Made by a program: the position numbers and the translations under genes
Assembly (NCBI RefSeq): GCF_025770725.1
Contig: NZ_JANZKZ010000004.1
Coordinates: 124,001 to 188,000, forward strand
Origin: Sulfurospirillum oryzae
Lineage (GTDB): Bacteria > Campylobacterota > Campylobacteria > Campylobacterales > Sulfurospirillaceae
Reading direction: 5' to 3'
Length of the DNA: 64,000 nt
Part shown: positions 39,739 to 41,393 of the stretch, piece by piece
How positions within the stretch are numbered: position 1 is the first letter of the stretch
Layout of the letters: every line of letters begins with the position of its first letter
The notes under the pieces: model-generated
Told to the model about the DNA's origin: nothing
Database searches by the model: none
Seen by the model: only the letters and a program-made list of their open reading frames with translations

Positions 39739-39758
39739 AGCCTTTACATGTAAAGGCT
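39739..39758 (-). terminator. Terminator of selW built from the dispersed palindrome
   Basis: AGCCTTTACATGTAAAGGCT is a perfect 20-bp palindrome containing TTTACATGTAAA. On the minus strand it is followed by TTTTTATAC, the usual T tract. It begins at the selW stop codon. A loopless perfect palindrome is a slightly unusual terminator; a 4-nt loop would form from CATG. Confidence 0.7.
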
Positions 39759-40005
39759 AATAACCTGCTTTTTTCAGCAGTGCAGCGATCTCTCCCACTT
39801 CAGGAAAGCGTTCTATGGGTGTGCCAATTTTTTCCGTTTTGGAAAAAATAACAATATCGTCAACGACAACATCAAAAAATCCGCCCGTTTTTGGGGAAAG
39901 GGTTGTTTTGGCATTTGGATAGGCACTTAAAATTTCATCTTTCACACGGAAAGCTCGTGGCATATATCCTCAACGTGTACAATAATAGATAACAACGTTC
40001 ATCAT
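39757..40005 (-). CDS. selW: SelW/Rdx-type selenoprotein with in-frame TGA (CxxU)
   Basis: Read through one TGA (39970-39972), the frame from the ATG at 40005 gives about 82 aa: MMNVVIYYCTRUGYMPRAFRV and on to EIAALLKKAGY, with C9 and Sec12. The pattern VxYYCxxUGYxxRAxxL and the later FFDVVVDDIVIFSK are those of the SelW/SelT/SelH (Rdx) thioredoxin-like family, where CxxU or CxxC is the redox site. AAGGAAA sits right before the ATG, supporting this start over the ATG at 39963, which would drop the active site. A short stem-loop (39945-39959) about 10 nt after the TGA could act as SECIS. It starts 6 bp after the EAL/HDOD gene. Confidence 0.85.
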
Positions 40006-40011
40006 TTTTCC

Positions 40012-41253
40012 TTAGGTTTCTTTGGTATGTTCCGTTTCTTCTACAAAGAGGGTTGCATTCATGCAGGCATCATAAAGTTGTTCGGCGTTAAAGCAAGGGT
40101 AATGTCCAAGTGCTTTAATGGTCGTTTCCATGTCACATGAATGATTCATCTGCGTTGCAATATAGAGCAATTCACCTAAAAATCCTTCATGGGTGAGAAG
40201 GGCTTTTTTAATCTCATCATCCAGATGGACATTAGCTAAAAATTCTTCCATTGAGATATTGAGGTATGCGTCAATTAAAGAGAGACTTCCTGTTAAAAAG
40301 GCTTTATTGGCAAGCTCAGCTTTATTGCACGCAAGGGCTAACTCTTCCATTGTTTTGGCTCGAAATTTGACATTATTAAAAAGTTCATCTCCAAAAGGAC
40401 GATGGTGTGGTTCTCCATACAAAAAGAGCCCGAGCCATGAAAGAATTTTTTGCGGTCCCAAAAGAGTCACCATCTGTTTAATAGATGTTATCTTTTGTTT
40501 GAAATGGTAAGCCCCAGAATTGACATGGCGTAAAAGGTTATAGACAAGATCAGGACATGTTGCAAATTTGTTGGATATATAAGTGACATCGTTGTTTTCT
40601 TGAATGCAATTGATAAGTCGAATCGCATTGATGGTGTTAGGTTCAATCTTTTGGCCACTCAAAATAATAGGTTTCTCAAAAAAGTAGCCTTGAAAAAAGA
40701 GAAAATCGAGTTTAGTACACACTTCATACTCTTCGTGAGTTTCAATTTTTTCAGCAAGAAGAGGGATATTATATTTTTTGAGTTTATGAATGGCAGCTTC
40801 TAGCTGGGGAATTCCAATGGCTTGAATGTCTACTTTGATCATTTCAGTGTAAGGGAAAAGTGGTTCATAGTGTTGTATTATCAAATCACTGCAATCAAAA
40901 TCATCAAGAGAGAAACGATAGCCCAAAGAGTGTAAATATTTAACGCGCTCATACAGCGCTAAAGAGACTTTAGTGTGCTCTAAGATTTCAAAGCCAAAAT
41001 ACTCTTTTGGAAGTAGTAAAACAGCATCGCTAAACAGCATCGTTTCATCAACATTGATATACCCCATCTTGTGTCCGATGATAGGTGTAAGACCTATATT
41101 GTGAATGAGGTTAACGATGACGCGAGCGGTCGCTTTGGCATTGTCTTGAAATGTCGCAACATTGTTAATTTCGCAGGAACGGTAAAGAAGTTCATACCCA
41201 AAGCATACACCCTCTTTATCAAAAATAGGTTGTCTACCAACGTAGGTACTCAC
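40012..41253 (-). CDS. EAL-HDOD signalling protein (YuxH-like, degenerate EAL)
   Basis: 413 aa from a GTG at 41253, chosen because GGAG lies 6 bp upstream; the frame extends farther but only through the multi-hairpin repeat. The N-terminal half is an EAL fold (VGRQPIFDKEGVCFGYELLYRS, then GYRFSLDDFD). The catalytic EAL is YELLYR and key metal ligands are lacking, so c-di-GMP hydrolysis is unlikely. The C-terminal HDOD domain (about residues 190-390) includes NLLRHVNSGAYHFKQKITSIKQMVTLLGPQKILSWL. Such proteins act as signalling scaffolds. It is upstream of selW in one transcript. Confidence 0.88.
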   Translation of the reverse strand: MSTYVGRQPIFDKEGVCFGYELLYRSCEINNVATFQDNAKATARVIVNLIHNIGLTPIIGHKMGYINVDETMLFSDAVLLLPKEYFGFEILEHTKVSLALYERVKYLHSLGYRFSLDDFDCSDLIIQHYEPLFPYTEMIKVDIQAIGIPQLEAAIHKLKKYNIPLLAEKIETHEEYEVCTKLDFLFFQGYFFEKPIILSGQKIEPNTINAIRLINCIQENNDVTYISNKFATCPDLVYNLLRHVNSGAYHFKQKITSIKQMVTLLGPQKILSWLGLFLYGEPHHRPFGDELFNNVKFRAKTMEELALACNKAELANKAFLTGSLSLIDAYLNISMEEFLANVHLDDEIKKALLTHEGFLGELLYIATQMNHSCDMETTIKALGHYPCFNAEQLYDACMNATLFVEETEHTKET

Positions 41254-41287
41254 AAAGCGCTCCTTTTTTATTATGGTATAGAGTTCC

Positions 41288-41393
41288 GCAAGAACTCTTG
41301 ATACGTTTTTGAAGCAAAGCTTCAAAAAACTACGTTAACACTGAGTTTTCTTCGGCAGAAAGCCCATGCACCTTTGGTACTTAGAGTTCTTTT
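41288..41393 (+). repeat. Multi-hairpin dispersed repeat, copy A
   Basis: About 105 bp, closely matching 54516-54619. Hairpins: TTTTTGAAGC (41306-41315) with GCTTCAAAAA (41319-41328); GAGTTTTC...GAAAGCCC around 41343-41364 with loop TTCGGCA; and GCACC...GGTAC (41369-41380). The first stem differs from copy B by paired changes. Lies upstream of the EAL/HDOD gene and downstream of pgp1, both on the other strand. A further inverted repeat (41383-41416) follows and may terminate pgp1. Confidence 0.85.

Follow-up and report, generated by a model that had tools for sequence, protein, structure and literature searches.

Comparative evidence for a selenoprotein W gene with an in-frame TGA codon in Sulfurospirillum oryzae

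We found that a minus-strand locus of Sulfurospirillum oryzae, of which a plain listing of open reading frames (ORFs) returns only the C-terminal 68 residues, is very probably (about 97%) a SelW-type selenoprotein gene with a CxxU motif, in which an in-frame TGA encodes selenocysteine (Sec). This reading is supported by family models, the predicted fold, the conservation of the TGA, coding-type evolution 5' of it, and a complete set of Sec genes in the genome. The gene, its recoding signal, the genomic machinery, the family, and the fold were all shown by computation; that this strain actually inserts Sec, and the redox chemistry of the product, we infer. SelW is already established as a selenoprotein in Campylobacterota, and what is new here is its Sulfurospirillum member.

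The selW reading frame

The locus lies in a stretch of 64,000 nucleotides (the window). Its features are as follows:

39757 to 40002, minus strand: selW coding sequence, 81 residues including Sec, stop codon TAG (translation with TGA as U; Rdx match; start placed from relatives and Shine-Dalgarno spacing)
40005, minus strand: alternative selW start ATG, one codon earlier, giving 82 residues
39970 to 39972, minus strand: predicted Sec codon, the in-frame TGA, residue 12 counting from 40005 (every locus inspected individually has TGA at the corresponding codon)
39979 to 39981, minus strand: Cys9 codon, with which the CxxU motif begins (invariant in the alignment of relatives)
40009 to 40013, minus strand: putative Shine-Dalgarno sequence AAGGA, overlapping the stop codon TAA of the upstream gene (all or nearly all members of the genus have an AAGG-type motif in roughly this position)
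39739 to 39758, minus strand: intrinsic terminator-like hairpin AGCCTTTACATGTAAAGGCT, followed by a T-run and overlapping the selW stop codon
39757 to 39963, minus strand: apparent 68-aa ORF
40012 to 41325, minus strand: upstream co-directional gene with EAL and HDOD domains, 9 bases before the first selW ATG (pair conserved in the genus)

A preliminary description of this DNA had proposed that the frame continues upstream through a TGA to an ATG preceded by AAGGAAA. The frame, the TGA, the ATG at 40005, and a Shine-Dalgarno-like AAGGA at 40013 to 40009 are all present, and over the 81 to 82 codons from 40005/40002 to 39757, the TGA at 39972 to 39970 is the sole internal stop. With TGA read as Sec, translation from 40005 gives MMNVVIYYCTRUGYMPRAFRVKDEILSAYPNAKTTLSPKTGGFFDVVVDDIVIFSKTEKIGTPIERFPEVGEIAALLKKAGY. 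The start itself needed revision: the ATG at 40005 exists, but the second ATG, at 40002, is probably the one used, because the relatives begin there and AAGGA then stands six bases upstream, a spacing that is also found in the relatives.

Protein family and conservation of the TGA codon

The read-through protein matched the Pfam family Rdx (PF10262) with an E-value of 8.4e-19 and 68.0 bits (curated cut-off 22.6) and the SelW/T/H model TIGR02174 with 3.7e-13 and 49.5 bits (cut-off 34.2). The NCBI equivalog model NF041051 (SelTWH_Campy), searched with C written for U, gave 82.9 bits, below its cut-off of 88. Ten Sulfurospirillum SelW proteins scored 82.1 to 85.9 bits with this model, while other members of the order reached 92.6 to 109. 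The shortfall is therefore a near-miss of the cut-off across the genus, with the ten proteins tested falling 2 to 6 bits under it. Annotation relying on NF041051 would miss Sulfurospirillum SelW, which may amount to a genus-wide gap. The closest named relative that we found is SelW of Sulfurospirillum diekertiae (94% identical).

A structure predicted with 15 relatives had a mean pLDDT of 92.6 and matched SelW-like crystal structures with a TM score of about 0.8. In a sequence search of the PDB, bacterial SelW-like chains matched down to 4.3e-8, and mouse SelW matched more weakly. The model has a strand at residues 3 to 9 and a helix at 15 to 28, with Cys9 and residue 12 in the loop between them. 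Both positions are invariant in the alignment. A CxxC or CxxU motif closing the first strand of a thioredoxin-like fold is characteristic of SelW/Rdx proteins, and the model shows this arrangement. The assignment of the sequence CTRU to the active site of SelW/Rdx proteins, made in the preliminary description, is thus backed by both the family models and the predicted fold.

We then compared the homologues at the TGA codon, a check that had been suggested with the original proposal. Of the 399 genomes from the order, 81 gave a SelW match; TGA occupies this position in 80 of them and a Cys codon in none. The remaining homologue has been reduced to a remnant by a frameshift, and its genome lacks the Sec machinery. 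The codon itself was verified in 37 loci, duplicates among them, and in 18 more, a stop was seen in alignment with residue 12. The in-frame TGA is thus conserved across homologues, as is characteristic of a selenoprotein gene. Over the ten codons preceding the TGA, pN/pS was 0.25, as compared to 0.31 after it, and within the genus, the differences in these ten codons are mostly at third positions. The portion of selW upstream of the TGA is thus coding.

These data also bear on whether the true gene might be the 68-aa ORF starting at the ATG at 39963, with the upstream frame open by chance. The ORF is indeed open, and GAGG lies six bases before its ATG. However, conservation of this ATG does not extend beyond the genus, the codon being Leu or Arg elsewhere, while the upstream frame, Cys9, and the TGA persist there, and none of the relatives starts at the downstream ATG. 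The mostly synonymous, third-position change upstream of 39963 (pN/pS 0.25) likewise argues against a chance frame. Moreover, a 68-aa product would have neither the first strand of the fold nor its redox motif; as had been pointed out, neither Cys9 nor residue 12 falls within it. On these comparative data, we rejected the internal start, to which we assign almost no probability, in favor of the full selW frame.

SECIS hairpin and Sec insertion machinery

Two overlapping stems downstream of the TGA were considered as the bacterial SECIS element:

39939 to 39953, minus strand: predicted apical hairpin of the bacterial SECIS, CTTTC-CGTGT-GAAAG, located 16 nt past the TGA (100% paired, 34 sequences)
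39945 to 39959, minus strand: CACG/CGTG stem proposed earlier, rejected as the SECIS (58.8% paired, equal to shuffled)

The letters of the CACG/CGTG stem are present as originally given, but the stem is not conserved: across 34 sequences, 58.8% of its cells are paired, a level that shuffles also reach. It is the overlapping CTTTC/GAAAG hairpin that is conserved. Its arms (39953 to 39949 with 39943 to 39939) are paired in all 170 cells of 34 distinct sequences, with compensatory changes on both sides at three of the five pairs (34 cells) and a covariation score of 0.600, as compared to 0.181 in shuffles. Offsetting one arm against the other by one to three columns lowered pairing to 49 to 67%. 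RNAalifold, run on the 34-sequence alignment, returned this helix alone, with its five-base loop, and the hairpin ranked best among all five-pair hairpins tested in 48 sequences. The second loop position is an invariant G (39947), which agrees with the G expected within the first two loop bases of a bacterial SECIS.

The minimum-energy fold of the single sequence was a different structure and no better than shuffles (z 0.13), so it is the alignment rather than single-sequence folding that is informative on the hairpin. An Rfam scan of the 64-kb window gave no match, as expected, since to our knowledge there is no general Rfam model of bacterial SECIS elements. Together, the comparative data point to CTTTC-CGTGT-GAAAG as the SECIS, whose position is now firmly placed by covariation.

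The same observations address the possibility that the TGA is a disabling mutation and selW a pseudogene here. Pseudogenes are known in the family, with a frameshift in one genome and possibly in a second (G274 and G250, see below). Nevertheless, every intact relative has the same TGA together with the hairpin, and purifying selection is seen on both sides of the TGA, which makes a disabled gene extremely improbable as compared to a functional selenoprotein gene.

The proposal had implied selA, selB, selC, and selD elsewhere in the genome, and we found all four above their curated cut-offs: selA (1.7e-158), selB (2.8e-92), selD (8.4e-110), and the tRNA-Sec gene selC (51.4 bits), which ARAGORN also called as tRNA-Sec with anticodon TCA. 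The selA and selB genes adjoin on one contig, and selD and tRNA-Sec lie on another. Thus, the genome can insert Sec. It further encodes two formate dehydrogenase alpha subunits (FdhA), each with a single in-frame TGA that falls within the motif ARIUHS. In both genes, a stem starts 14 bases past the TGA, and its loop, GGTGT or GGTGC, resembles the SelW loops CGTGT and CGTGC.

Across the order, SelW and selB tend to occur together: selB was above the cut-off in 72 of the 81 genomes with SelW (a manual count based on the E-values) as compared to 113 of the 318 others (Fisher 6e-19, ignoring relatedness). Seven of the nine SelW genomes without selB above the cut-off are fragmented assemblies with tRNA-Sec above it.

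The UGA could in principle be read by other means, such as ordinary readthrough, a suppressor tRNA, or insertion of tryptophan or cysteine. Against this stand the complete Sec set of the genome, the covariation of the SECIS hairpin, and the occupation of this place by Cys in Rdx proteins that are not selenoproteins. We therefore regard non-Sec decoding as having a negligible chance of being correct, and Sec as the residue encoded.

In the mechanism that we propose, the ribosome would start at 40002 and complete the first beta strand, whose last residues are Y-C-T-R, before reaching the UGA. SelB with Sec-tRNA(Sec), positioned on the hairpin CUUUC-CGUGU-GAAAG 16 nt downstream, would insert Sec at this codon, and translation would run on to the TAG at 39757. 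The predicted fold of the product is thioredoxin-like, and the CxxU residues Cys9 and Sec12 are placed in the loop that joins its first strand to its first helix. The protein would most likely act as a small thiol/selenol oxidoreductase with a selenenylsulfide cycle.

Known relatives, genomic neighbors, and exceptional genomes

In Campylobacter jejuni, selW was predicted computationally in 2005 (PMC1242214), the transcript CJnc60 was found to encode a selW ortholog (PMC3847290), and in 2025, Ribo-seq and mass spectrometry detected full-length SelW extending past the Sec site (PMC11955535). SelW-like proteins are also among the high-confidence predicted prokaryotic selenoproteins (PMC13188914). 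Cravedi et al. (2015) reported that epsilonproteobacterial SelW genes were overlooked in annotation and described a shared hairpin of 5/6 bp whose loop has an invariant G (PMC4607533). This hairpin is the same element as the CTTTC/GAAAG hairpin of Sulfurospirillum, a genus that the main text of that paper does not mention and whose SelW was not the subject of any paper in the literature searched. The C. jejuni protein resembles the one described here in being an Rdx protein of about 80 residues with CxxU, a TGA-coded Sec, and a hairpin after the TGA, and in having been overlooked by ordinary annotation. It differs in its genomic neighbors, and protein identity to the relatives of that group is only about 40 to 45%. 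Our result thus amends a single gene's annotation and leaves the general knowledge of selenoproteins unchanged.

Mammalian selenoprotein W relies on eukaryotic Sec insertion via a SECIS in the 3'UTR, unlike bacterial SelW. The mouse protein (PDB 2npb) shares the Rdx family and CxxU, with a weaker fold match (TM about 0.6). Bacterial Rdx structures of the Cys type (PDB 3dex, 2fa8, 2obk, 2oka, and 2p0g) have the same fold at 23 to 34% identity but show CxxC instead of CxxU in the alignments seen, with a cysteine codon where selW has the TGA, so that no recoding is needed.

The EAL/HDOD gene adjoins selW in all 18 loci of the genus, and a potassium channel-like gene lies downstream in 16 of the 18; neither was found beside selW in twelve loci that lie outside the genus but within the family. 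Because the pair is conserved in Sulfurospirillum, Sec availability and the SelW redox state could conceivably be tied to the EAL/HDOD signaling protein in a genus-specific functional pairing. We consider this very unlikely, and the literature searched does not describe it.

Several genomes depart from the general pattern. One of the nine SelW genomes without selB above the cut-off is a real exception: the metagenome-assembled genome (MAG) Sulfurospirillum sp. UBA2217 (G172; loci L036, L056, and L089) has SelW with the TGA and an intact, compensated SECIS, CTCTG-CGTGT-CAGAG. In this assembly, called 99% complete, selA, selB, selD, and tRNA-Sec were all below the cut-offs, and no FdhA with a TGA was found. 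Either the Sec trait was recently lost here and selW has been left as an orphan selenoprotein gene, or the MAG has gaps. In G274 (locus L066), the last of the nine, a selW remnant carries a frameshift just before the Sec codon, and none of selA, selB, selD, and tRNA-Sec was above the cut-off; this is a natural example of gene decay following Sec-trait loss. The single-contig Sulfurospirillum genome G250 (locus L067), which still has selB, shows a frameshift around residue 54 that is either a pseudogene or a sequencing error. Three further Sulfurospirillum genomes (G065, G194, and G265) have selB and tRNA-Sec and yet no SelW match; SelW is thus dispensable in the genus. Finally, two genomes hold more than one copy: G358 (locus L068) has two diverged SelW-like TGA frames in tandem, about 190 bases apart, and G297 has two SelW copies about 16 kb apart.
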